The notes under the pieces are model-generated. The model made no database searches. It was not told where the DNA came from and was given only the letters and a program-made list of their open reading frames with translations. A stretch of DNA of 38,274 nt from Mariniblastus sp. (GTDB lineage: Bacteria; Planctomycetota; Planctomycetia; Pirellulales; Pirellulaceae): positions 1 to 38,274 of the forward strand of contig WTFU01000050.1 in the NCBI GenBank assembly GCA_011523945.1. Direction: 5' to 3'. This document shows, in pieces, positions 6,743-27,133 of this stretch (position 1 is the first letter of the stretch; every line of letters begins with the position of its first letter). A program made the position numbers and the translations under genes.

Positions 6743-7351
6743 ATGATTCGATTTTGCTTGATCTTAACAGGTTTAACCATTTCGGCGATGTCAATTGGCT
6801 GCTGCGGTCCGATTGGGTGTGGCGTGGATATCTCAATGGGGCACAACGGATGTGTTGATTGTGTAGAGCCTGTGTATCGTCCTCTCGATGGTGTTCGGCA
6901 GCTTCGCGGGCGTTGGGCTTGTGGTAGCGGATGTGCTGAAACGTATTATGGCGAGTGGCGAAGCACTCCGCCTGATGTGCACGACCCTTGCTGTGACCAA
7001 GGCTGTGTCGAAAGTCGCAGAATCTATTGGAGCGGCTGCTGGCAACCGGGTGCTTTACTTCGTGGACTCTATGGCGTTCGTTATTGTGATGATTGCGGCT
7101 CTGATGTTGGATGTGATTGCGAAGGCGGAATGATCCACCAATACATGGATGAAGAGGTAGTGCCCGAGGCGGCTGAGCCAACGGTTGCGATGATGACAGG
7201 TGGATGTGACTGTCCCAGTTGCCGCACAGGCAACGCGGTAACCGCAACGGGATATCCTCAAACCGTTCGGCAGACGGCAGCGGTTAATGCGCCGTCCTCA
7301 AGAACCGTTTCGTATCGAAAAGTTGTCCCCGTGAACCAGAGAGTGCGTTAG
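6743..7351 (+). CDS. Cysteine-rich secreted lipoprotein
   Basis: 202 residues with more than 20 cysteines. I chose the ATG at 6743, because a G-rich site (GGGGGA, 6730-6735) lies about 7 nt upstream; the TTG at 6728 overlaps that site. The signal peptide ends MSIGC (lipidated Cys20, next to Cys21). The mature protein is full of short Cys clusters (GCCGPIGC, CDDCGSDVGCDC, CDCPSC) and ends in a Thr/Val/Arg-rich tail. I know no defined domain for it; Cys-rich secreted proteins of this style are frequent in Pirellulaceae. It could be a disulfide-bonded envelope component or bind metal; both are inferences. Confidence 0.8.
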   Translation: MIRFCLILTGLTISAMSIGCCGPIGCGVDISMGHNGCVDCVEPVYRPLDGVRQLRGRWACGSGCAETYYGEWRSTPPDVHDPCCDQGCVESRRIYWSGCWQPGALLRGLYGVRYCDDCGSDVGCDCEGGMIHQYMDEEVVPEAAEPTVAMMTGGCDCPSCRTGNAVTATGYPQTVRQTAAVNAPSSRTVSYRKVVPVNQRVR

Positions 7352-7422
7352 TCAGTCGGCTTTGTCGTCCTGAGTGCCCGCCGATCTTCACGCAATTTCA
7401 TTTTCTCGCGGTTTCAGGCTCT

Positions 7423-7776
7423 CTAGCCGGGGGGCCACGAAAGTGGTCGTCGGGCGAGGATGTGCAAGTGAAGATGGTCGACCGATTGTCCTCCGTCTTG
7501 TCCGCAGTTCGCTACTACTCGATAGCCCGAACCTTCAATCCCCAGTAATCGTGCTACTTTGGGGACGGTAAGCAATAGGTGCCCCGCGAGCTCCTGGTGG
7601 GCTTCGTCGAGCGAATCAACATTCACAATTTCCTGCTTGGGTATTAACAGGACGTGAACCGGTGCTTGCGGAGACGTATCGTGAAAAGCGAGACATAAAT
7701 CGTCTTGATAGACAATGTCGGCCGGGATCTCGCCGTCGATTATCTTTTTGAAAATCGTTTTTTCTTCGCTCGTCAT
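7423..7776 (-). CDS. HIT family (HINT-like) nucleotide hydrolase
   Basis: 117 residues, the normal length for the HINT branch. The histidine triad is present as HLHLHILA with His101, His103 and His105; the middle histidines form the nucleophile/phosphate-binding site. Upstream landmarks also fit the family: IFKKIIDGEIPADIVYQDD at the N-terminus, HVLLIPK in the centre and GYRVVANCGQDGGQSV before the triad. These enzymes hydrolyse purine nucleoside phosphoramidates or related adenylates in the cytoplasm. It is followed upstream (33 bp) by the Trm112-like gene on the same strand. Confidence 0.96.
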   Translation of the reverse strand: MTSEEKTIFKKIIDGEIPADIVYQDDLCLAFHDTSPQAPVHVLLIPKQEIVNVDSLDEAHQELAGHLLLTVPKVARLLGIEGSGYRVVANCGQDGGQSVDHLHLHILARRPLSWPPG

Positions 7777-7808
7777 TTTAATGGTTCCGCAATTGGAAAG
7801 TTAAGAGT

Positions 7809-8087
7809 TCAGGCTTCTTCTTTGCCGGCTTCGTTCAAATCGATGGCTTGGTCTTCGATTAAAATGACGATGCCTCCCCGAATTGGAAGGAGCAAGGTTT
7901 GGCTTTCATTAATGTATCCGCCTTCGAGCGGTGTCGCGATAGTTTGTCCGATTCGATTGACAAGTTTTTTTTCGAGAATTTGTTGATTGAGAGAGGCAAT
8001 TAAATCGGGATCAGCAGGTTTGAGTGGTGATTTGGTAACGGGGCATCGAATGATTTTTGAAAATTCCACGTCGGTAGGTGAAGACAT
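7809..8087 (-). CDS. Trm112-like (UPF0434/YcaR-type) small protein
   Basis: 92 residues. The N-terminal FSKIIRCPVTKSPL and the C-terminal LLLPIRGGIVILIEDQAI match the two ends of the Trm112p-like/YcaR fold (CP..k..L and the P-x-R-x-G-I-P-x-L strand). In classical members a Cys pair binds zinc; here only the first Cys remains (CPVT in place of CPxC), so metal binding is unlikely. Trm112 in eukaryotes and archaea activates methyltransferases; the bacterial role is less clear. Confidence 0.8.
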   Translation of the reverse strand: MSSPTDVEFSKIIRCPVTKSPLKPADPDLIASLNQQILEKKLVNRIGQTIATPLEGGYINESQTLLLPIRGGIVILIEDQAIDLNEAGKEEA

Positions 8088-8267
8088 CGAGGATTTACTT
8101 TCTCACCCTCAACAGCGGGGTGCTTGGGCAATTAGTAATTAGAAGCAGTTGAATCTATGAGAATGCCGCGTTCGGGCGTACCGCCGTAGCCGGTATCGTA
8201 CTGCCTATCAGATCATAGATTTATTTTTGAGATAAATCAAAGTGGAATAATTCAGAGGCAAAAAGTG

Positions 8268-8984
8268 TTAGGCTTCTGTTGCATTGAGTGTTTGCTGGGC
8301 AACCAGCATCCAATCGACTTGTTCATCAAACTCATCTCCTTCATACCGAAGTCTGGTAAGAACAGGGGAGACTGAGCGGCTCGAGATTTGTTCTCGATTC
8401 GTTTCCATGCTGACGTCACCATCAAACATCCTTGCGTCATTCAGAATAACCCCCGCGATTGGAATTCCGTCACGAAAGCAGGCGGCGGTAATTAAAGCAG
8501 AGAGTGACTGGTTAATCACGCCGATTGAATTGGGTGCGACGACGATGGTGGGGTATCCGAGATCGTAGGCGACATCGGCGAAATACTCATCGTCACTGAT
8601 CGGTGACATGAGTCCACCTGCGCCTTCAACAATCACGATATCGCACTCATCGGCCCACGCTGAAATCCCGGCTCTCATCAACTCGGTATCGAGCTCGCGT
8701 CCTTCGTGTCGAGCGGCCAGATGCGGAGCGAGAGGCGCCTGGAATCGTTGAGGGCAAACGGCTTCCAGTGTCAGCGGGTGTCCTGCGGCTTCCCATAAGG
8801 CAACGGCGTCTTCGGAGACGAGTTGTCGTCCGTCAGAAACACATTCGCTGGCAGCGGGTTTATAAACGCCAACGCGATGCCCAGCCGCCACTAAATCCTT
8901 GACGATATGGGTCGCAACGTAGGTTTTTCCTACTTCAGTATCCGTGCCGGTGATGAACAATCCGAAGGGTGGTTTCTTTAACAT
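8268..8984 (-). CDS. bioD: Dethiobiotin synthase
   Basis: ATP-dependent carboxylation and ring closure of 7,8-diaminopelargonate to dethiobiotin, the penultimate step of biotin synthesis. 238 residues, normal for the family. The P-loop GTDTEVGKT (residues 13-21) and the second signature VEGAGGLMSPISDD are intact; LAPHLAARHEGR matches the substrate-binding region. No other biotin gene is adjacent, so the pathway is dispersed. It is divergent from the carbamoylputrescine amidase gene with about 160 bp between starts. A 170-bp spacer with small dyads separates it from the Trm112-like gene. Confidence 0.96.
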   Translation of the reverse strand: MLKKPPFGLFITGTDTEVGKTYVATHIVKDLVAAGHRVGVYKPAASECVSDGRQLVSEDAVALWEAAGHPLTLEAVCPQRFQAPLAPHLAARHEGRELDTELMRAGISAWADECDIVIVEGAGGLMSPISDDEYFADVAYDLGYPTIVVAPNSIGVINQSLSALITAACFRDGIPIAGVILNDARMFDGDVSMETNREQISSRSVSPVLTRLRYEGDEFDEQVDWMLVAQQTLNATEA

Positions 8985-9145
8985 GCCTTAAGACTACCAT
9001 TGAGGAGATTAACGTCCAGATAGGAAGTCGGAATATCGCGTCTTCTTTCCTGAAGATCAACATTAAAATCAGGTTAGGGAAGCGATCAGAGCAAAGAAAA
9101 TTTGGACGTTCCGCATTTATGGTTTCTATTTCCCGAGATAAAAAC

Positions 9146-10012
9146 ATGAATTCCACTCTCGATATCGCAGTAATTCAGGCTACATGTCGTTCCGACGGGG
9201 AAGCGAATCTCAAGGCAACGGTTGGCCAGATTGTGGACGCAGCGGGGGCGGGAGCGAAACTCATTTGCCTTCAGGAACTGTTTGCTTCGACTTATTTTTG
9301 CCAGTCTGAAAACCATGAGCATTTTAATTTAGCTCAGTCGATCCCCGGAGCGATCACAGATCAGTTGTCGAAACTAGCAAAAGAGCTGCAGGTCGTAATT
9401 GTCGCGCCGGTGTTTGAGAGGCGGGCTGCCGGTTTGTTTCATAACTCAGCGGTAATTATTGAGTCAGATGGCTCACTTTTGGGCACCTATCGAAAGATGC
9501 ATATCCCTGACGATCCTTATTTCTATGAGAAGTTCTATTTCACTCCCGGTGACCTTGGTTTTCAGTGTTTTGAGACGTCGGTTGGGAAAGTTGGCATTTG
9601 TATTTGCTGGGATCAGTGGTTTCCAGAAGCAGCTCGCTTGACCGCACTTCAAGGTGCTGAAATTCTGGTCTACCCCACGGCAATCGGATGGCAGGCGGGG
9701 GAAAAAGCAGAGTACGGTCAAAGCCAGCTGAACGCGTGGCAGACGATGATGCGATCTCATGCAATTGCCAACGGTGTATTTGTTGTTGCGCCGAATCGAG
9801 TCGGCATCGAAGAGAATATTGAATTTTGGGGCTCTTCCTTTGTGGCCGATCCGTACGGTGTCGTTCTCCAAACCGCTTCAGTCGAGCAACCGGAGACCAT
9901 GATCGTTTCTTGCGATTTGTCATTGGTGGAAACAGCTCGAACGCATTGGCCATTTTTCAGAGATCGTCGAATTGACGCGTATGGTGATCTTTCTAAGCGC
10001 TGGCGTGGCTAA
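9146..10012 (+). CDS. aguB: N-carbamoylputrescine amidase
   Basis: Carbon-nitrogen hydrolase of the nitrilase superfamily that converts N-carbamoylputrescine to putrescine, CO2 and ammonia. The catalytic triad is visible: Glu44 in LQELFAS, Lys117 in YRKMHIPDD and Cys154 in GICICWDQWFPE. YFTPGDLGF and the WGSSFVADPYG segment match the N-carbamoylputrescine amidase branch. The ATG at 9146 gives 288 residues, the usual length, and begins just before the first strand (LDIAVIQ); the longer frame back to 8969 adds residues that fit no family. The next gene, 42 bp downstream, encodes agmatine deiminase, which makes its substrate. Confidence 0.95.
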   Translation: MNSTLDIAVIQATCRSDGEANLKATVGQIVDAAGAGAKLICLQELFASTYFCQSENHEHFNLAQSIPGAITDQLSKLAKELQVVIVAPVFERRAAGLFHNSAVIIESDGSLLGTYRKMHIPDDPYFYEKFYFTPGDLGFQCFETSVGKVGICICWDQWFPEAARLTALQGAEILVYPTAIGWQAGEKAEYGQSQLNAWQTMMRSHAIANGVFVVAPNRVGIEENIEFWGSSFVADPYGVVLQTASVEQPETMIVSCDLSLVETARTHWPFFRDRRIDAYGDLSKRWRG

Positions 10013-10054
10013 ACTATTTCTGGATTTCTCTTTCAAATTGTCATGGTGGTTTAA

Positions 10055-11086
10055 ATGACGCATCCTCTTCGATTGACTATGCCTGCTGAGTGGGATCGAC
10101 AGTCTGCAATTTGGCTCAGTTGGCCTCATAATCAAGAGACATGGCCGGACAATCTGGAACCAGCTCAGCGTGAATTTTTGGAATTAGTACGCACAATCGC
10201 AACAACCGAACCGGTCATGGTCTTGGTCGATTTCGCGGAAAGTGAGCAGGCTGTAGAGACGATGCGTCGTTGGAATAATGTTACCTGCGTCGACATTCCT
10301 ACCAACGATGCATGGGCACGCGATTATGCGCCTACGTTTGCAATTGACTCTGAAGGCGGAATGGTTGCGGTCGATTGGCAATACAATGCCTGGGGAGGCA
10401 AATATCCTCCTTACGACCTCGATCAACAGGTTGCGAAACGAGTGGCGGAGTATCTCGGGATTGACCACGTGTCTCCTCCATTTTGCTTCGAAGGTGGCGC
10501 GATCGAAGTGAATGATCATGGTGTGCTGCTCAGTACTCGGTCGTGTGCGCTGAATCCCAATCGCAATCCGGGGATGGATATCGAGCAAGCTGAATCCATC
10601 TTGAAGAAGTATCTTGGAGTGGAGGTTTGCTTATGGCTCACTGGAAATGCAATCGAAGGAGATGATACCGATGGCCATATCGATCAAATTGCTCGATTTG
10701 TGAATCCAACTACAATTGTTATGGCGGCAGATTGCGGGACCAACAAGATTCAGCGTGAGGGCCTTGAGCGGAATCATAAAGACTTGAAGGAACAGCTAAA
10801 ATTCCAGGGATTAGGACATTACCAAGTGATATCGTTGCCGTTGCCGAGTTCATTCACATTCTGCGGCCGGGTGATCCCGGCGAGTTATTGCAATTTCTTG
10901 ATTACGAACGAACTCGTTATTGTTCCCCAATTTGGGGTGGAAGAAGACAAACAAGCTTTACAAATTTTAAGTCCTTGGTTTCCGGAAAGGGAAGTTGTGG
11001 GCTTGGCCTCTAAGAATATTGCGGTTGGTTTGGGCTCGTTTCATTGTCTTTCGCAGCAACAGCCAGAGATTCACGAAAACATTTAA
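10055..11086 (+). CDS. aguA: Agmatine deiminase
   Basis: Hydrolyses agmatine to N-carbamoylputrescine and ammonia; guanidino-modifying (peptidylarginine deiminase-like) fold. 343 residues. Family landmarks: MPAEWDRQSAIWLSWPHN at the start, NDAWARDYAPTF, FEGGAIEVND, GDDTDGHIDQIARF, and the catalytic cysteine in GSFHCLSQQQP (Cys331). The acidic and histidine residues in those motifs form the rest of the active site. With the preceding amidase it completes the two-step route from agmatine to putrescine. The arginine decarboxylase that would supply agmatine is not in the window. Confidence 0.96.
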   Translation: MTHPLRLTMPAEWDRQSAIWLSWPHNQETWPDNLEPAQREFLELVRTIATTEPVMVLVDFAESEQAVETMRRWNNVTCVDIPTNDAWARDYAPTFAIDSEGGMVAVDWQYNAWGGKYPPYDLDQQVAKRVAEYLGIDHVSPPFCFEGGAIEVNDHGVLLSTRSCALNPNRNPGMDIEQAESILKKYLGVEVCLWLTGNAIEGDDTDGHIDQIARFVNPTTIVMAADCGTNKIQREGLERNHKDLKEQLKFQGLGHYQVISLPLPSSFTFCGRVIPASYCNFLITNELVIVPQFGVEEDKQALQILSPWFPEREVVGLASKNIAVGLGSFHCLSQQQPEIHENI

Positions 11087-19145: not shown

Positions 19146-20357
19146 TTAGTCCTCGTTCGTGATAATAACGCTTGATTCAGTATCCTGATAATCACGCAGT
19201 GATTCATCCGCATGTTTCTCGATTTCGAGATCGTACTTCGAGATCGGCGCCGGTCTGCCGTAGTAGTATCCTTGGCCGAGTTGGAAACCCATCTGAACCA
19301 AGATGTCATGACACTCTCGGGTTTCAACTCCTTCAGCAAGAGTCTGAATTCCTAGATTGTTGACCAGCGTGGCAAATAAAGCGACCAACTCTTGACGCTT
19401 GATTGAGGCATGTTCGATGTTGTTTGTAAGTTTCATGTCAAATTTAAGGAAATCGGGTCGCACTTCTCCGAGTTCCACCAAACGCGCCTTTCCAACGCCG
19501 AAATCGTCAAAGGCCAACATGATGTTCAAGTCTTTCAGGACTGCGCAAAGCTCTCCCATTAGGGTCATGTTGGTAACTGCGGCTTCATGGATTTCGAGCG
19601 TGATTTTCTGTTCAGGTGCTGCCTTGCGGACCTCTCGCAGTGAGTCGTAAAGTTCCGAGTTGCCAAGTTCTTTAGGGTGCGTATTGACAAAGAGGTTTGA
19701 ATCCGGACCGAAAGCGGTACCGATTTCAACTCCACGTAGTCTGAAAGCTTCACTCAGTTGAGATTCCATATTTAACTGGGATGCTGCTTGGAACATCTCC
19801 TGTGGCGTTTGAAGACCAAACAGTCGACTGCGTCCGAGAACTTCATAACCGACGAAGGCCTGGTCTTCGAGTTGCACGATGGGCTGAAAGTGTGGATAAA
19901 GTCCGCCGTCACTGATTAGTTTTTCGAACTGAATCATCGCAAGCGCCTGGTCACAAACGTCCTCATGAACGGTGTTATAAGAACCAACACTCTCCTGGTT
20001 AACTCCGACGCGAAATACAAGAGCGGCAAAATGAATTAGGTCATTTTCTCGGATTTCTTTTTCACCGAAGATTTGTTCACCGTTGACAAATGTTCCATTG
20101 GTGCTGCCAAGTTCACGCAGCGTTAATCGTCCATCGTCCGACACGATGATTTCAGCATGGTTTTTCGAAATGCAACCGTCAGGCAGGTGCAGCGAAGAGT
20201 CTGATTTCCGGCCAATGGAAAAAGGCGTCGAATGGATCGGAAACTGACGATTAGGTTGCGAGGGGTCGAGTTGACCAGTCAAAAACCAACGACAGTTTTT
20301 GGGTGCTTTTCCCTCGCTTTGAGGGATGTTTGAGTTGATTGCATTCAGGTCGAACAT
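19146..20357 (-). CDS. FHA-EAL domain signalling protein
   Basis: 403 residues. FHA domain at about 45-115: FSIGRKSDSSLHLPDGCISKN is the phosphothreonine-binding start (Arg50, Ser64, Asn66-His67) and GSTNGTFVNG (84-93) the end. EAL domain at about 150-385, with motif EVLGR (Glu172) in place of EALLR, Asn225, Glu255, DDFG (284-287), Lys305, Glu342 and Gln362 in LGQGYYYGRP. All metal and catalytic positions appear present, so c-di-GMP phosphodiesterase activity is possible. FHA domains bind phosphothreonine made by Hanks kinases; a kinase-containing protein is encoded in the divergent transcription unit across a 459-bp gap. Cytoplasmic: no signal or membrane segment. Confidence 0.92.
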   Translation of the reverse strand: MFDLNAINSNIPQSEGKAPKNCRWFLTGQLDPSQPNRQFPIHSTPFSIGRKSDSSLHLPDGCISKNHAEIIVSDDGRLTLRELGSTNGTFVNGEQIFGEKEIRENDLIHFAALVFRVGVNQESVGSYNTVHEDVCDQALAMIQFEKLISDGGLYPHFQPIVQLEDQAFVGYEVLGRSRLFGLQTPQEMFQAASQLNMESQLSEAFRLRGVEIGTAFGPDSNLFVNTHPKELGNSELYDSLREVRKAAPEQKITLEIHEAAVTNMTLMGELCAVLKDLNIMLAFDDFGVGKARLVELGEVRPDFLKFDMKLTNNIEHASIKRQELVALFATLVNNLGIQTLAEGVETRECHDILVQMGFQLGQGYYYGRPAPISKYDLEIEKHADESLRDYQDTESSVIITNED

Positions 20358-20816
20358 GAGTGGGCTTGAATCGTAAATGGTTTAGTCGGGTTTGAGGAAC
20401 CAAGTGAGATGATTTGCTCCAAAGTATGAAACAAACAAAGTCACGTTTACGGGCGGTTCGGCCGGAGGAAGGTCGAAAGATCCTCCTTTCCGTTAAGGAT
20501 TTGTAGCTTTTAAATAAACAATTGGTTGGAACAAAAAAGACAAAATCAGCAAGGTCGATAAATGATTTGCAGAGCTTTCCCCAGTTAGCTTCGGATCGGT
20601 TCGAGAAGGCCGAAAAAAACGCGGAGGAAATAGGGTTTGTAGCGGTGGTGTCAGTTAATTCAAATTTTGCATCCCTTTCGACCGAGTCGGAACCGCTTAA
20701 ATCCACCCAGGTTGTTCCTTTTGATTTCGTTGCGAGAATTGTTATTGAGGCGACGATATACTTCTTTAATGGAAGATCAATTGATTCATGCATTCTTTGC
20801 AATCTGAGACATCGCC
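20358..20816. other. 459-bp divergent intergenic region of the signalling locus
   Basis: No convincing gene. It holds the upstream sequences for the minus-strand FHA-EAL gene and the plus-strand ATPase gene. A hairpin with stem GGAGGA (20464-20469) and TCCTCC (20481-20486), with a TC-GAAA-GA tip (20473-20480), stands out. No clear sigma-70 boxes could be picked with confidence. A frame at 20522-20851 has no recognisable protein features and runs into the ATPase start. Confidence 0.5.
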
Positions 20817-22145
20817 ATGTTTACTCAAACCCCACCAAGTCTGGGCTCTGAATTGCTCGCAACCATTTTGGCCGACGAGTCATTTCGCCCCTCAGAACCC
20901 AATTCGCTTCCAGAAACAAGTTTGCCAAATTCTCTGATTGAGAACTTGTTACTTAAACGACTCGCTGTGGTAGGAATGAGTAGCGGGCGTCAACTTTCTA
21001 ATGATCTGTGTTTACCATTTAGCGTGTTACAAAAGTTGTTTGCACAACTTCGATCGCGGCAGATCATTGTTCATAACGGTTCGGCACCACTCAATGATTA
21101 CAGTTACACTTTGACGGAAAGCGGTCGCGAGCGGGCGGCGCTTGCAAGTCAGCACTGCTCGTATGTAGGACCGGCTCCAGTTCCATTAATGGACTATGTC
21201 CTCAGCGCGGAGGCCCAGACGATCCGGGCCGAGTCACCAAAACGCAAGCAACTTCGAAATGCTTTTGGCGATATCTCGATTAACGAGTCGCTCTTCGAGA
21301 ATCTAGGGCCCGCGATTAATTCCGGTGCCGGGTTGTTTTTGTATGGAGAACCCGGGAACGGGAAGTCGACGCTGGCTCATCGAATTACCCGGTGTTTTGG
21401 TAATGAAATCTGGGTTCCGCATGCGATTTATGAAGATGGTCACATCATCAAATTTTTTGATGCTGCCTATCACAAACCAGCCCAAGATGATTCTAATTCA
21501 TTGATTCACGAGGCTGCTTACGACAAACGCTGGGTGAAGATACGCCGACCAACAGTCGTTGTTGGCGGTGAATTAACTATGGATTCACTTGAAATTCGCT
21601 ACAATCGGAACAGCAATGTCAGTGAAGCTTCGCTGCAGATGAAAAGTAATTGCGGTTGTCTTTTGATCGATGATTTTGGCCGCCAGCGAATTGAACCGCA
21701 AGAATTATTAAATCGCTGGATTGTCCCATTGGAGAGTCGAGTTGACTTTCTCAAGCTGGCAACGGGCAAGAAAATTATGGTGCCGTTTGAGCAGTTGATA
21801 ATTTTTTCAACGAATCTTGAACCGAGTGACTTGGTGGACGAAGCATTCCTTCGTCGGATTCCGTACAAGATTGAAATCAGCGATCCTTCCACCAAAGAAT
21901 TCCACGTTTTATTTGAGATTTACTGCGATAAGTTAGGGTTTGAGTATGACGCTGAAGCGGTTGATTACTTGATCGCGACGCACTTCACTTCGGCCTCGCG
22001 GCGACTGAGACGATGCCATCCGAGAGACCTTTTGACGCAGATTAGAAATTTCTGTGCTTACAATGAGTTACCTGTAGAAATTCGTCCTGAATATTTTGAC
22101 CGAGTTGTCAAAAGTTACTTTACGGAAGTTCTAAACAAGAATTAA
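20817..22145 (+). CDS. AAA+ ATPase with N-terminal winged-helix-like region
   Basis: 442 residues. The N-terminal region (about 40-112) looks like a winged helix: LSNDLCLPFSVLQKLFAQL, then RQIIVHNG and YTLTESGRERAAL as the wing. The ATPase core has Walker A GEPGNGKST (177-185), Walker B CLLIDDFG (Asp285-Asp286), sensor 1 IIFSTNLEP and DEAFLRRIPYKIE (Arg346-Arg347) as a sensor 2/arginine position. A C-terminal helical part follows. I recognise the general type from planctomycetes but no named family. It lies upstream of the kinase-tubulin gene on the same strand (330 bp) and divergent from the FHA-EAL gene. Confidence 0.85.
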   Translation: MFTQTPPSLGSELLATILADESFRPSEPNSLPETSLPNSLIENLLLKRLAVVGMSSGRQLSNDLCLPFSVLQKLFAQLRSRQIIVHNGSAPLNDYSYTLTESGRERAALASQHCSYVGPAPVPLMDYVLSAEAQTIRAESPKRKQLRNAFGDISINESLFENLGPAINSGAGLFLYGEPGNGKSTLAHRITRCFGNEIWVPHAIYEDGHIIKFFDAAYHKPAQDDSNSLIHEAAYDKRWVKIRRPTVVVGGELTMDSLEIRYNRNSNVSEASLQMKSNCGCLLIDDFGRQRIEPQELLNRWIVPLESRVDFLKLATGKKIMVPFEQLIIFSTNLEPSDLVDEAFLRRIPYKIEISDPSTKEFHVLFEIYCDKLGFEYDAEAVDYLIATHFTSASRRLRRCHPRDLLTQIRNFCAYNELPVEIRPEYFDRVVKSYFTEVLNKN

Positions 22146-22475
22146 GCTGAGCGAGCATTTTCAGCATCGAATCCGAATCTATTTGGCAGCAACTAAGTAG
22201 GAGCGAGGCGGTCGGTAAACATCGTTTTCCGATGATTCCATCCCCCAAGACCGCCCATTTTCCAATCACTTCCCAAAACGGGCTTCCCCGTCGGCCCGTC
22301 AGTCGTAGCAAATGTTCCAGTTCTTTGGATTGGCGAGTGATTTTTCGGGCGAATCTTTGCCGGTTTTCACCTCCGATTCTATCCAAAAGCTACCTTTCCG
22401 AGGCACTTCGCACAATTAATGCAGCTGAGTAATTGAACTCTGTTTAAAACGGTGAATTTTCGGTAGAGGAATCCA
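22146..22475. other. 330-bp spacer with nested hairpins
   Basis: No convincing protein. GGCGGTC (22207-22213) pairs with GACCGCC (22249-22255), enclosing CATCG (22220-22224) with CGATG (22230-22234). A second hairpin is ACGGGC (22278-22283) with GCCCGT (22294-22299). It lies between the ATPase and kinase-tubulin genes and may be an RNA leader, processing site or attenuator. A 66-codon frame at 22232-22432 shows no features. Confidence 0.5.
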
Positions 22476-25400
22476 TTGAAATCTGAACGACTAGAATCTC
22501 AGCGTGATATTCTCGGCTACACGCTTCAGAATCGGATTGGTACCGGCGGGTTCGGTGAGGTCTGGTCGGCCATTGCGCCGGGTGGCCTTTCCAAAGCACT
22601 GAAGATTATCTACGGATTTCACGACGAGAAACGGGCACAATCGGAGCTGAAGTCACTCGATCGCGTCAAGGCATTGCGGCATCCGTTTCTGCTCTCGCTC
22701 GAGAGAATTGAGGTTTACGAAGGCCAGTTAGTGGTCGTTTCCGAATTAGCGGACAAGAGTCTAGCTGAAGCATTCAATGAGTTTACTGCCAAGGGTCAGT
22801 TGGGAATTCCTCGCGCCTTGGTGTTGCGTTATCTTCGCGGAGTCGCAGAAGCTCTCGATTATATGCGTGAAGAGCACAAGCTCCAGCATCTCGACATTAA
22901 GCCGGAAAACTTATTGTTGGTTGGGGACCATGTTAAGGTTGCTGATTTTGGATTGATCAAGGACATTGATGCCGGTTCGCACTCACTGATGTCCGGCATG
23001 ACCCCTGCGTATGCGGCGCCGGAGCTGTTCGATGGCTGTCCCGGAATGCACAGTGATCAGTACTCTTTGGCAATTGTCTTTCAAGAAATGCTAACTGGCA
23101 CCCGTCCATTTCCGGGAAACACGCCCGCACAACTCGCTGCCCAGCATCTTCATGGAAAGCCAAACTTACGACTGTTGCCGAAAGGTGATCAGCCGATTGT
23201 GGCTAAAGCACTCTCTAAAGACCCAACGTTGCGGTATTCCACTTGCAGCGATTTTATTAACGAGCTGGTCAATAAGAAAAGGACTGTCAAAAAGTCGGTG
23301 CGTCGATCAGATATCCATCTCGATGTGGATTCAAACACGATGACCCTGCCTGGTTCTAACAACAGTCAGCAGGTCACGCCGACGCTGTCTGGAATGGGAT
23401 TGCCTTACAAGGGAACTGCGCTGAAGTCGTTAGGTCCACCCGATTGTAATCCTCAAAAGGCGAAACTGCGACCGACTTTGGTGGTTACGATCGGTGAAAC
23501 TGCGAATCGAATCGCTCATAAATTAAAAAAGCAAATTGGGTGCAGGCATGGAGACCTTGCAGAATTACCTTCTACTGAAATACTTGCTATCGACACTGAT
23601 CGGCAGGCATTAAATGAACTATGTGCGATTGGTGTTAATGGTGCGTTAGGCGTGAGCGAGGTAATTGACGTTCCTTTGCGAAAGCCGGAAGTATATCGTG
23701 ACCGTACGCATTCTCTGCTTTCTTGGTTGGGGCGACGCTGGATTTATAATGTGCCACGGTCGCTGCAAACTGAAGGATTGCGTCCACTTGGGAGACTTGC
23801 TTTTGCGGATCACTTCGACATGATTTGCAATCGCATTCAAGAGAGTCTTCGAAAGATCGTGGCGGTAGAAAATCTTGCAAAGTCGGCGGACAAATTAAAT
23901 ATTGATCCCGGTGAATTATCCCCCCGTGTATTTTTGGTGACCTCAATCAGCGGCGGTGTTGGCAGCGGAATGGCCCTCGATCTTGCCTACACAATCAAGC
24001 TGCTGATGAACGAAAATAACATTGATTCCAATACGCTTTGCGGAATATTGTTGCATTCGACGTGTAAACAAAAACGAGATCCAACACTCTCGACAGCGAA
24101 TTCGATTTCATTTTTAACGGAGATGCGGCATTTTGTAGAGCGTGGCTACACCGGAGATCCGACGATCGGGTTGCCTGATTTTGAAAATGAGCCGCCTTTT
24201 GATTTTACTTACTTCAACGACTTGGGGCACGATTTGAGATCAAGTGCATTTGATCTCAATCTTGATCGAGTCGCGGAGTACATTTACTTGTCAAGCACTT
24301 CCCGTTGCTCTGAGTTTTTGGATAAATGCCGGGATATTGAGTCGGAATTTGATCACTTTTCCCTTCGGACTTTTGGGATGAGTTCTACTGGTCCCGGAAA
24401 TTTAAAGACTGGACAAGACGCCGTTAGTCGGGTCGCCAGTGGGTTGGTTTCGCGATGGTTGGGTAGTGAACGCGGTAGGCAATTCAACGCGAATGAATTT
24501 ATTGACCGTCAAATGGTATTGGCTGGCTTGGGAGAATCCCAGCTAATTCAGCGAATTTCTGGTGTCGCAGAAAATGTATTCGAAGGCAAGATTGGAACGA
24601 TCGTATCGGATGCAAAAGAAATGGTTTTGGCAACGTCGGTTGATTCGAGAGAAACGATACAAGAGTTTCTCGATGGTATTTTTGGTGGCTCCGGCGCGAC
24701 CGACGCCGAAAGTGTTGAGCTGGAAGTTTGTCATCAGATGAAGGAACTCACCCAGCAAATGGCTGCAAAAGATGCCGGTGTCTTGCGGGATGAGATTTTC
24801 AAAATGGTCAGTAGCCAGGAACTGAATATTTTTAAAGCTCAACAATCGATTGACTGTCTTCTTGCAAGGCTCGATGGCGTTCAGGTAAAGCTAGAGCATT
24901 CTATCCGCAATCATCGTTCTGATTTAAGAGTCAAACTGAGCGAATTGCGTCCATTTTCTGATGAGCGAGCACGGTCGAGTCAAGAGTTTGAGGTGAGATT
25001 CGATCGAGCTGTTAGTGACTACTGCGATGCGAGGTGTACTGAATTTTATCAGCGTTTCGCGACGTCTTATTACCGGACCGTTGCTCGTGCATTGGATTCC
25101 ACTCGGGAAATGATTTACAAGTTCAAAACGAAACTTGAAAAAATACAGGTTGATTTTGAATCCATCGAAGAAATTGAAGAGGTGGAGACCACTGATGAAT
25201 TTAACATGAATCAAATTTTCAGCGATAATATCAATCGTGATCTCAATCAACAAATCTTAAAAACCGAACTGCAAGTTTACCAATCACTGATTCGAGACTG
25301 GGGAGATTACGTTAGCGTATTCAACGATGCGTCGCTCATGAGGAGTCAATTGCCGCAGCAAATCAGATCGTCAGCACAACGCGTTTTAACCAATGCTTAT

Positions 25401-25778
25401 AAGAAAGTATCATTGGATGATGTGGTTCAAAAAGAAAATATTGGCCCTGAACAGTTAGTGAAATGGGCGAAAGATCGCATACGTGAGGCAAGGCCCGAGG
25501 TTGACGATTGCGGCGGCACTTGCCGGTTGATGGTTGGCATGCCTGCGTTGTCCGGCGAGTCGATGCTGCCAAGAATCCTGGAAAATAAATTCAAATTAAA
25601 GAACTGTGCAGTCAACGGAACTCAAGGTAATTTTGTGCTCTGTTTCGAAGGCGAAGACGTTCCACTTGCCAATGTGGCGTTCCGATTGCTGGAGAGCCAA
25701 CCGAATGCTCCCGAATTAGTAAGGCGAATCAATACCAGAAATGACATCGATTGGTCGACACTCGATGAATTGCTGTAG
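22476..25778 (+). CDS. Ser/Thr kinase - Tubulin_2-like fusion protein
   Basis: 1100 residues. TTG start at 22476 preceded by AGAGGA (22465-22470). Kinase domain about 14-270: G-loop IGTGGFGEVW (21-30), Lys43, HLDIKPENLL with Asp140, Lys142 and Asn145 (HLD, not HRD), DFG (157-159), APE (181-183). A Ser/Thr/Pro-rich linker (about 270-330) follows. From about 332 a nucleotide-binding fold starts (RPTLVVTIGETANRIA, ILAIDTD), with the glycine loop SISGGVGSGMALDLA (490-504) that is the tubulin/FtsZ G-box in the Tubulin_2 (PF13809-type) form. The C-terminal half is helical with likely coiled coils. All kinase catalytic residues are present, so activity is expected. No membrane segment. Located after the AAA+ gene and near the FHA-EAL gene. 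Confidence 0.9.
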   Translation: MKSERLESQRDILGYTLQNRIGTGGFGEVWSAIAPGGLSKALKIIYGFHDEKRAQSELKSLDRVKALRHPFLLSLERIEVYEGQLVVVSELADKSLAEAFNEFTAKGQLGIPRALVLRYLRGVAEALDYMREEHKLQHLDIKPENLLLVGDHVKVADFGLIKDIDAGSHSLMSGMTPAYAAPELFDGCPGMHSDQYSLAIVFQEMLTGTRPFPGNTPAQLAAQHLHGKPNLRLLPKGDQPIVAKALSKDPTLRYSTCSDFINELVNKKRTVKKSVRRSDIHLDVDSNTMTLPGSNNSQQVTPTLSGMGLPYKGTALKSLGPPDCNPQKAKLRPTLVVTIGETANRIAHKLKKQIGCRHGDLAELPSTEILAIDTDRQALNELCAIGVNGALGVSEVIDVPLRKPEVYRDRTHSLLSWLGRRWIYNVPRSLQTEGLRPLGRLAFADHFDMICNRIQESLRKIVAVENLAKSADKLNIDPGELSPRVFLVTSISGGVGSGMALDLAYTIKLLMNENNIDSNTLCGILLHSTCKQKRDPTLSTANSISFLTEMRHFVERGYTGDPTIGLPDFENEPPFDFTYFNDLGHDLRSSAFDLNLDRVAEYIYLSSTSRCSEFLDKCRDIESEFDHFSLRTFGMSSTGPGNLKTGQDAVSRVASGLVSRWLGSERGRQFNANEFIDRQMVLAGLGESQLIQRISGVAENVFEGKIGTIVSDAKEMVLATSVDSRETIQEFLDGIFGGSGATDAESVELEVCHQMKELTQQMAAKDAGVLRDEIFKMVSSQELNIFKAQQSIDCLLARLDGVQVKLEHSIRNHRSDLRVKLSELRPFSDERARSSQEFEVRFDRAVSDYCDARCTEFYQRFATSYYRTVARALDSTREMIYKFKTKLEKIQVDFESIEEIEEVETTDEFNMNQIFSDNINRDLNQQILKTELQVYQSLIRDWGDYVSVFNDASLMRSQLPQQIRSSAQRVLTNAYKKVSLDDVVQKENIGPEQLVKWAKDRIREARPEVDDCGGTCRLMVGMPALSGESMLPRILENKFKLKNCAVNGTQGNFVLCFEGEDVPLANVAFRLLESQPNAPELVRRINTRNDIDWSTLDELL

Positions 25779-25817: not shown

Positions 25818-26789
25818 CTATTTTTCCAAAACATACGCAAAGATTAACGGAGCGACGATTGAGGCATCGGAGTTAATCATGAACCGCGGTGTGTCAGCTG
25901 CCAACTTACACCAGGTGATTTTTTCATTGGGCACAGCGCCGGAGTAAGAACCATAAGAAGTGGTTGAGTCTGAGATTTGAGCGAAGTACTGCCAGAGTCG
26001 AATATCTTTTTTCAAGTCTTGAATGATCGTTGGAACGGCACAGATTGCAAAGTCTCCGGCGATTCCGCCCGCGATTTGGAAAAATCCAATTGGAGCGTTA
26101 GCATCCGTTTCTAAATACCAGTTCACGAGATGCTCCATTTGTTCGGTACCTGATCGTAGTGCATGGTGTGATTTGATTTTCTTTTCAATGCACCTCGCGG
26201 CGAAGATATTCCCAAGTGTTGAATCTTCGAAGCCCGGTGAGTAAACCGGAATCTGTTTTTCATAAGCTGCCAAAAGCCAGGAATTAGCCGGATCGATCTG
26301 AAAGTGAGATCCAAGTACACCGGTTTCAAACAGTTTGTAAAAAACCTCGAAGGGAAACAGGCTTGCTCCGTTGTTGGCATTCTCGGCGCAAATGGACATG
26401 AAATTTTCTTCAATATGCCGCATCACGGTTTCCGGAATACATGTATCAGTGACCCGGTTAAACCCTTCCTCGAGGAGCGCTGTTTCATCGCTCGGTGAAA
26501 GGTCCCGATAGTTAGGGACTACTCGATATTCATCGTGGGCGACCAAATTAAAGACATCTTCTTCTAAATTGGCGCCGGTGCAGGAGATGGCGTGAACTTT
26601 GTCCATACGGATCATCTCGGCCAGCGAAATGCCGAGTTCTGCCGTACTCATGGCCCCCGCCAGGCTGACCAGCATTTTCCCACCTGAGGCGAGATGTTCT
26701 TTATAGCCTCGCGCGGCGGCGACCGTTTCTCTAGCATTGAAATGTAGGAAATTCTGGTCAAGAAAATCAGAAATGGGAGAATTCGACAT
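25818..26789 (-). CDS. Deoxyhypusine synthase-like enzyme
   Basis: 323 residues from the ATG at 26789 (MSNSPISDFLDQNF); the upstream extension to 26855 has no features. Deoxyhypusine synthase family: LVSLAGAMSTAELG, ISCTGANLEEDVFNL (NAD-binding), VYSPGFEDSTLG, and the catalytic-lysine segment ITWCKLAADTPRF (Lys about 295) followed by NSDASIVAPLIFAY. The eukaryotic enzyme transfers an aminobutyl group from spermidine to a lysine of eIF5A. Bacteria lack eIF5A, and known bacterial relatives act on free polyamines, such as homospermidine formation from putrescine. This window also encodes the putrescine pathway AguA/AguB. The exact reaction is an inference. Confidence 0.88.
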   Translation of the reverse strand: MSNSPISDFLDQNFLHFNARETVAAARGYKEHLASGGKMLVSLAGAMSTAELGISLAEMIRMDKVHAISCTGANLEEDVFNLVAHDEYRVVPNYRDLSPSDETALLEEGFNRVTDTCIPETVMRHIEENFMSICAENANNGASLFPFEVFYKLFETGVLGSHFQIDPANSWLLAAYEKQIPVYSPGFEDSTLGNIFAARCIEKKIKSHHALRSGTEQMEHLVNWYLETDANAPIGFFQIAGGIAGDFAICAVPTIIQDLKKDIRLWQYFAQISDSTTSYGSYSGAVPNEKITWCKLAADTPRFMINSDASIVAPLIFAYVLEK

Positions 26790-27133
26790 GGCAGTGACTT
26801 TTTTGGGGAGAGTGCGTTTAGGGAGCAGGTTTGAGGTTCCCGCGATCCAGCACAAGTTCGTTGAATCCTTGTTGGCTCGCGGGGAAAACGTCGTTTGTTG
26901 TATCAGTTTCTTGTTGTACCAAAAACTGATTATTGGGGGTGTACAAATGAAACAACAAGTTGCATCCTAGCGACACGATGCAAAAATGCATCAACCGTAA
27001 ATTGCTGAAATTTCCGAAAAAACTGGGGATTTCCGACGAATTAAGCCTGGTTCAGGCTTCGGCACCAAGTTTGCAATTGGAGCGGTAGAAGCCTTTTTCA
27101 TTATTCCCGATAAATTTTTCGAAGAAACAAACA
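26790..27133. other. 344-bp divergent spacer with overlapping dyads
   Basis: No gene seen. TTGCATC (26960-26966) can pair with GATGCAA (26977-26983); the same GATGCA (26977-26982) can instead pair with TGCATC (26987-26992) around loop AAAA. A further dyad ATCAGTTT and AAACTGAT lies upstream (about 26900-26930). It holds the promoters of the deoxyhypusine-synthase-like gene and the gene at 27134. Confidence 0.5.

Follow-up and report, generated by a model that had tools for sequence, protein, structure and literature searches.

A planctomycete locus joining a kinase-bearing Tubulin_2 protein to FHA-EAL and AAA+ genes: a candidate signalling module

What might a Ser/Thr kinase fused to a relative of FtsZ be doing beside a phosphothreonine-reading FHA domain, itself fused to an EAL domain of cyclic di-GMP (c-di-GMP) turnover? 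The question is posed by a 38,274-nucleotide stretch of Mariniblastus sp. DNA (contig WTFU01000050.1; the window, by which we mean the whole stretch analysed). Open reading frame coordinates and Pfam domains agree with the layout described in an earlier note on this DNA: an FHA-EAL gene (19146-20357, minus strand, 403 amino acids) diverges from an AAA+ ATPase gene (20817-22145, plus strand, 442 amino acids, recognised by its conserved motifs), which is followed by a gene for an 1100-residue kinase-Tubulin_2 protein (22476-25778, plus strand). The reading we favour, with a probability of roughly 0.48, takes the locus for a signalling module conserved among planctomycetes, with a scaffold of the FtsZl1 (Tubulin_2) family that carries its own N-terminal Ser/Thr kinase; the module would work by the mechanism proposed below. 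Our strongest inference is that FHA-EAL and kinase-tubulin form one functional module, and the locus suggests one machine in which protein phosphorylation, c-di-GMP and a cytoskeleton-like scaffold are coupled. Where the earlier note had proposed a phospho-regulated system, the domains, the linkage, the conserved FHA and EAL residues and FHA-ligand-like Thr motifs in the linkers speak for it, whereas a filament, a role in place of FtsZ and the rarity of the fusion are not supported.

Gene linkage and distribution

A scan of genome contigs gave 157 confirmed relatives, and the window with the best 80 of these forms our main set of 81 loci; going by their labels the 80 are planctomycetes, apart from one given simply as "bacterium" and one from a Nealsonbacteria bin. 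Near the kinase-tubulin gene we found an FHA-EAL gene in 71 of the 81 loci, an AAA+ gene in 56 and a GGDEF-family gene in 22, and the three-gene linkage on which the earlier note had staked its proposal extends over many genera. Ten loci are without FHA-EAL. Two of them have room for it upstream (L081, 7.9 kb; L147, 3.3 kb), and the other eight, in our judgement, are cut off by a contig end on the flank that holds the gene in their kin. At L051, where kinase-tubulin has no FHA-EAL beside it, the gene immediately upstream encodes a 415-residue protein (6920-8167) with no Pfam match.

The order seen in the window, with FHA-EAL on the minus strand and AAA+ and kinase-tubulin on the plus strand, is found in 34 loci, plus one in which AAA+ is split. 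Other loci are arranged as AAA+, kinase-tubulin and FHA-EAL in one direction (8 loci), as FHA-EAL, AAA+ and kinase-tubulin in one direction (2 loci), or with AAA+ on the minus strand and FHA-EAL and kinase-tubulin on the plus strand (1 locus). A further 25 loci carry a second type of FHA-EAL protein, FHA-EAL2, as distinct from the window type, FHA-EAL1. On a quick tree of 64 kinase-tubulin proteins (linker columns omitted, eight stateless rows uncounted, support weak at 21 of 61 inner branches), at least seven changes of locus type are needed, three of them among FHA-EAL1 gene orders and four between the FHA-EAL types. Across 60 genomes of the window's own family, which are 72-100% complete, so that some absences may be gaps, kinase-tubulin is present in 35 and without a match in 25; FHA-EAL1, counted as present at E below 1e-60, occurs in 29 of the former and 4 of the latter (Fisher p 2.6e-7). 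PF13809 itself matches in 37 of the 60, own genome included, the sole Tubulin_2 protein of two genomes (G021 and G051) being without a kinase domain. More widely, an alignment of the C-terminal part matches 18 of 292 phylum genomes, strongly and at full length in nine, namely six of the own family (own genome included) and three of another family of the class.

A smaller first set of 38 loci, which includes the window and overlaps the main set, has kinase-tubulin clustered in 34 loci, FHA-EAL in 29 and AAA+ in 23 (22 within the 34); of the 34, 29 have FHA-EAL and 22 have AAA+. These neighbourhoods bear on a membrane-remodelling complex such as has been proposed for FtsZl1 systems, in which AAA+ and FHA-EAL would here replace the vWA partner. 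FtsZl1 operons elsewhere contain vWA, kinase and GTPase genes according to PMC2875224, and three kinase-less Tubulin_2 proteins of the same family adjoin vWA/PKD genes in the classical FtsZl1 arrangement (L038, 6673-12322; L043, 6085-12439, with vWA below cut-off; L052, 7176-13818). Beside kinase-tubulin, however, third gene families reach 9 of the 38 first-set loci at most, GGDEF (9) and sulfatase (7) being the commonest, and no recurrent vWA partner was found in these 38, where annotation covered part of the neighbours. We therefore consider a membrane-remodelling role unlikely.

The kinase-tubulin protein and its relation to FtsZ

The kinase-tubulin gene begins with a TTG start codon, with AGAGGA, read by eye, a few bases upstream. 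Its product opens with a Ser/Thr kinase domain (residues 15-269, 22518-23282; Pfam Pkinase 8.4e-32, above the curated cut-off). In an alignment of 73 rows the tested kinase sites (the P-loop glycines, Lys, Glu, HxD, Asn, the DFG Asp and the APE Glu) are kept in every row, and every row has HLD in place of HRD. The predicted model has a mean predicted local distance difference test score (pLDDT) of 85.5, falling below 50 in a linker (residues 268-310, 23277-23405) that is predicted to be disordered and holds two candidate Thr sites, T288 and T301. After it comes a tubulin/FtsZ-like nucleotide-binding region (335 to ~640, 23478-24395), within which PF13809 matches residues 335-622 at 6.9e-24 and 85.2 bits, compared with a cut-off of 27. 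The glycine loop SISGGVGSGM, the counterpart of T4, is confirmed at residues 490-499 (23943-23972), where the earlier note had placed it; G493 and G498 are kept in 73 of 73 rows and G494 in 72. In the model, helices follow the GTPase-like domain over residues 750-894 (24723-25157), a region that is probably coiled coil, and beyond, and a C-terminal alpha/beta domain (~1012-1074, 25509-25697) contains two almost invariant glycines, G1013 and G1014.

How far the resemblance to FtsZ extends was addressed by aligning profiles. E. coli FtsZ alone aligned over the T1-T3 stretch only (29.9, against 21.5 or less for five controls), and we therefore built a profile of 11 FtsZ proteins. With hhalign, residues 330-662 scored 35.3 against this profile (P 6.7e-4, probability 27%) and eight control profiles reached at most 26.8; the match takes in T1, the NTD/DTD strand and T4. 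The alignment spans T1-T4 only and shows no counterpart of T7. A Foldseek search with the full model returned named rows that were nearly all kinases in both libraries, and so was uninformative for the tubulin half, while an hmmsearch of the C-terminal alignment against PDB sequences gave mainly helical or coiled-coil hits and, with E 0.19, a single tubulin/FtsZ chain (3zid). Going by these profiles, the GTP-binding half from T1 to T4 appears weakly to resemble FtsZ. The tubulin/FtsZ fold expected by the earlier note is thus borne out, by sequence profiles and not by comparison of structures, in the N-terminal half that would bind the nucleotide, but not in the remainder, where no counterpart of T7 is seen.

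A GTP-dependent filament, in which the tubulin-like domain polymerises, the kinase and AAA+ control its dynamics and FHA-EAL reports on it, would account for the alignment of T1, the DTD strand and T4 with FtsZ above all controls, for the near-invariant T4 glycines and for the long helical region. It sits less well with the modest hhalign probability and the lack of a visible T7 counterpart, with the report that T6-H7 is not identifiable in the FtsZl1 family (PMC2875224), and with the window's own T1, IGETA, which is off consensus where 45 of 73 rows have G at position 341. Filament formation, which the earlier note had held possible, consequently appears improbable to us.

The same note had stressed that planctomycetes generally lack FtsZ, and in the window's own genome (91.87% complete) the FtsZ_C model indeed finds no match, as a cell-division device standing in for FtsZ would lead one to expect. 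The kinase-tubulin gene is nevertheless without a match in 25 of the 60 family genomes, some of them incomplete, and it is therefore not an obligatory substitute; in one locus (L193, 8618-8923), mid-contig in a genome without the full gene, all that is kept is a 101-residue C-terminal remnant, which suggests loss. Replacement of FtsZ is accordingly disfavoured, and we give it hardly any credence.

Nor is the fusion of a kinase and a tubulin-like domain in one chain the unusual feature that the earlier note took it for: it is common in the family and has been in print since 2010, when four planctomycete FtsZ-like proteins with an N-terminal kinase were described (Makarova and Koonin 2010, PMC2875224). 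PMC9871819 refers once more to the kinase domain in Planctomycetes, and PMC11032199 names tubulin-like as the domain most often associated with the solely cytoplasmic Ser/Thr kinases of planctomycetes, a kinase-tubulin architecture that our protein shares. The FtsZl1 family (PF13809) as set out in PMC2875224 has Tubulin_2, a long helical middle and a C-terminal domain, as does the window protein, four planctomycete members bearing the kinase. What differs is the company: the partners here are FHA-EAL and AAA+, whereas the available text of PMC2875224 is without FHA and mentions AAA once, for chelatases, and that of PMC11032199 makes no mention of EAL, c-di-GMP, operon or neighbourhood. We found no FHA-EAL and kinase-tubulin module in print in the open-licence literature, nor any paper on FHA-EAL by that name or on FHA and EAL domains together in Planctomycetes, and there is no such module in the available parts of PMC2875224, PMC9871819, PMC11032199 and PMC10936438, which likewise give no tested function for FtsZl1 proteins. 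It is the gene module, then, and not the kinase-FtsZl1 fusion, that appears to be new. Kept through changes of gene order, this module puts names to the partners of FtsZl1 and points to a phospho-docking site open to experiment. Three systems that are mostly studied separately, Ser/Thr kinases with their FHA readers, the turnover of c-di-GMP, and the relatives of tubulin, would meet in it, in bacteria with no sign of FtsZ in their genome.

A possible phosphorylation circuit

The FHA-EAL protein has an FHA domain at residues 47-110 (20028-20219, minus strand; Pfam 8e-17) and an EAL domain at 145-369 (19251-19925, minus strand; 2e-41), both above cut-off. Across 45 rows of FHA-EAL1, the FHA residues G49, S64, H67 and N87 are invariant and T86 is kept in 44; of the EAL set E172, N225, E255, D284, D285, K305, D307, E342 and Q362, seven are invariant and D307 and E342 are kept in 44, these FHA and EAL residues being the ones that we take to be functional or catalytic. 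FHA-EAL1 thus appears to retain the metal-binding and catalytic residues of an active EAL phosphodiesterase. Scored by sequence, the best FHA chain of the PDB is 6hc0, a "GGDEF domain protein" that is presumably Bdellovibrio DgcB. Just after the FHA domain, Thr129 (codon 19971-19973, minus strand) is Thr in 45 of 45 rows and is a candidate phosphosite or helix N-cap.

A second indication comes from the kinase-tubulin linker. The motif T-x-[VLIMT]-[FLIMV] is present in 43 of 61 non-redundant linkers, compared with 15.5 expected by shuffling (0 of 2000 shuffles reached this count), and its Ser form in 21 against 17.3. As the motif had been drawn after looking, 20 held-out linkers were tested, of which 10 have the Thr motif (4.3 expected; 13 of 5000 shuffles as high) and 4 the Ser form (5.7 expected). 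A strict version with [VLIM] at +2 occurs in 43 of 79 linkers at 70% redundancy, 23 of 51 at 50% and 16 of 34 at 45% (0 of 3000 shuffles in each case), its Ser and Ala versions lying below expectation. The FHA ligand of DgcB, in common with GarA/OdhI, has hydrophobic residues at +2 and +3 (PMC6733907), and in the PknG-GarA pair the FHA substrate docks on autophosphorylated segments of the kinase (PMC8546545).

In the mechanism that we propose, the kinase would first autophosphorylate a Thr in its disordered linker, as the Thr-specific motif suggests. The FHA domain of FHA-EAL would then bind this phosphothreonine and bring the phosphodiesterase to the scaffold, much as PknG recruits GarA/OdhI, after which the kinase may phosphorylate the Thr just behind the FHA domain, so that FHA-EAL closes or oligomerises and the EAL domain switches, as proposed for DgcB. 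Finally, the AAA+ protein may assemble or dismantle the complex, a step suggested by gene linkage and the least supported of the four. The outcome would be a local c-di-GMP level under the control of phosphorylation and scaffold, which probably serves attachment, the envelope or a change of life stage and not division.

The proposal draws its plausibility from the PknG-GarA logic (PMC8546545) and from DgcB. PknG, too, has a disordered segment, autophosphorylated in its case, and its FHA partner has a Thr motif of its own; here, in contrast, kinase and tubulin relative make up one chain, as do FHA and EAL, the Thr follows rather than precedes the FHA domain, and the phosphosites are candidates. 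In DgcB, an FHA-GGDEF protein, the FHA domain is believed to regulate a c-di-GMP enzyme by way of a phosphorylated tail (PMC6733907), with the same ligand pattern, whereas in our locus EAL replaces GGDEF and a candidate kinase is encoded next door.

The second locus type offers a variation on this arrangement. Among the 25 FHA-EAL2 loci, 22 have a GGDEF-family gene and 5 have AAA+ beyond it; in examples such as L060 (7968-15884), L090, L095 and L096, the GGDEF-family (REC-GGDEF-CBS) gene diverges from FHA-EAL2 and kinase-tubulin. The FHA residues are kept in 24-25 of 25 rows, and in an alignment at about 25% identity the EAL sites are kept far less evenly: N225 and E342 in 1 row each, D285 in 3, D307 in 6, D284 in 7, K305 in 10, Q362 in 12, and E172 and E255 in 13 each. 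Pfam EAL matches one of two FHA-EAL2 proteins scanned and leaves the other without a match, and the EAL domain of this type looks mostly inactive. The linked protein is REC-GGDEF-CBS in five of seven scanned and shows CBS only in two. Of the 22, 21 lack the GGDEF signature; only the longer of L109's two copies retains it. By contrast, a GGDEF gene with an intact signature lies upstream in all five loci ordered FHA-EAL, AAA+, kinase-tubulin (L142, L146 and L187-L189), so that c-di-GMP enzymes recur beside kinase-tubulin in both active-looking and degenerate form. Intact-signature GGDEF proteins are also encoded downstream of kinase-tubulin at L089 (4229-5149), L074 (13395-15569) and L107 (12708-13820). 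After the FHA domain of FHA-EAL2, T-x-hydrophobic-hydrophobic, mostly TQVM-like, is found in 19 of 24 proteins (L115, which is missing the anchor, omitted) compared with 4.4 expected and a maximum of 11 in 5000 shuffles, and the Ser form in 2. The type-2 EAL and the linked REC-GGDEF-CBS protein may thus have turned into c-di-GMP sensors or scaffolds. The full scheme, which would make a signalling machine of a new class and in which a scaffold with its own kinase writes the linker phosphothreonine, FHA-EAL gates c-di-GMP hydrolysis there, AAA+ resets the complex and the type-2 EAL and GGDEF pseudoenzymes act as c-di-GMP sensors, is offered as tentative and on balance doubtful.

No Pfam family matches the AAA+ protein above cut-off, but all 52 of 52 rows agree in the Walker A Lys, the Walker B Asp-Asp, the sensor Asn and two Arg. 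The best model of the protein (mean pLDDT 75.6) matches AAA+ structures; the other four models score 50-56, and given this unevenness we leave the AAA+ clade unassigned. The model also hints at a winged-helix-like region at the N-terminus. Family matches occur in 54 of the 60 family genomes, often in two or three copies. Examples of unlinked paralogues are found at L148 (429-1892), L149 (2862-4274) and L150 (7761-9449 and 14535-15977), and the neighbourhoods of the paralogues, compared by eye, show no recurring partner.

Several observations weigh against the phosphorylation circuit and the module built on it. The rows compared throughout are related by descent, and the linker motif was one of 11 patterns tried. 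At 40% redundancy the strict motif is no longer significant (5 of 17 linkers, 3.0 expected), and the T-[ED] subform fails to replicate (1 of 20 held-out linkers, 0.65 expected). T-x-x-[DE] is another preference of FHA domains, and it is not enriched (27 of 61 linkers, 34.1 expected). In the window the linker has the motif in its relaxed form only, with T at +2 of T288 and T301, and the T-x-x-E at Thr129 suits a helix N-cap box equally well. FHA-EAL1 is also found unlinked, and in 4 genomes without kinase-tubulin, so that other kinases may serve it, and the AAA+ family, too, has members away from the locus. With E172, E255 and Q362 kept in about half of the FHA-EAL2 rows, the loss of EAL activity in that type is uncertain.

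The surrounding genes

The flanks also bear on whether the locus could be an anti-phage defence system. Its kinase domain does score against PADLOC kinase models and its AAA+ protein, weakly, against IetA; these matches, however, are limited to the kinase domain or to short AAA motifs, no set of system-specific PADLOC defence families occurs together at the locus, and the neighbours scanned are RecJ, UDG, ferrochelatase, TrkH and other metabolic genes. A defence role is therefore very unlikely. Among the window genes scanned, RecJ and UDG lie on one side of the three genes, and a deoxyhypusine-synthase-like gene, an unknown gene and a methyltransferase lie on the other, all unrelated to the locus. 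Elsewhere in the window, a carbon-nitrogen hydrolase gene adjoins a PAD_porph (agmatine-deiminase-type) gene (8969-11086), and this pair and the deoxyhypusine-synthase-like gene (25818-26855) are possibly polyamine genes.

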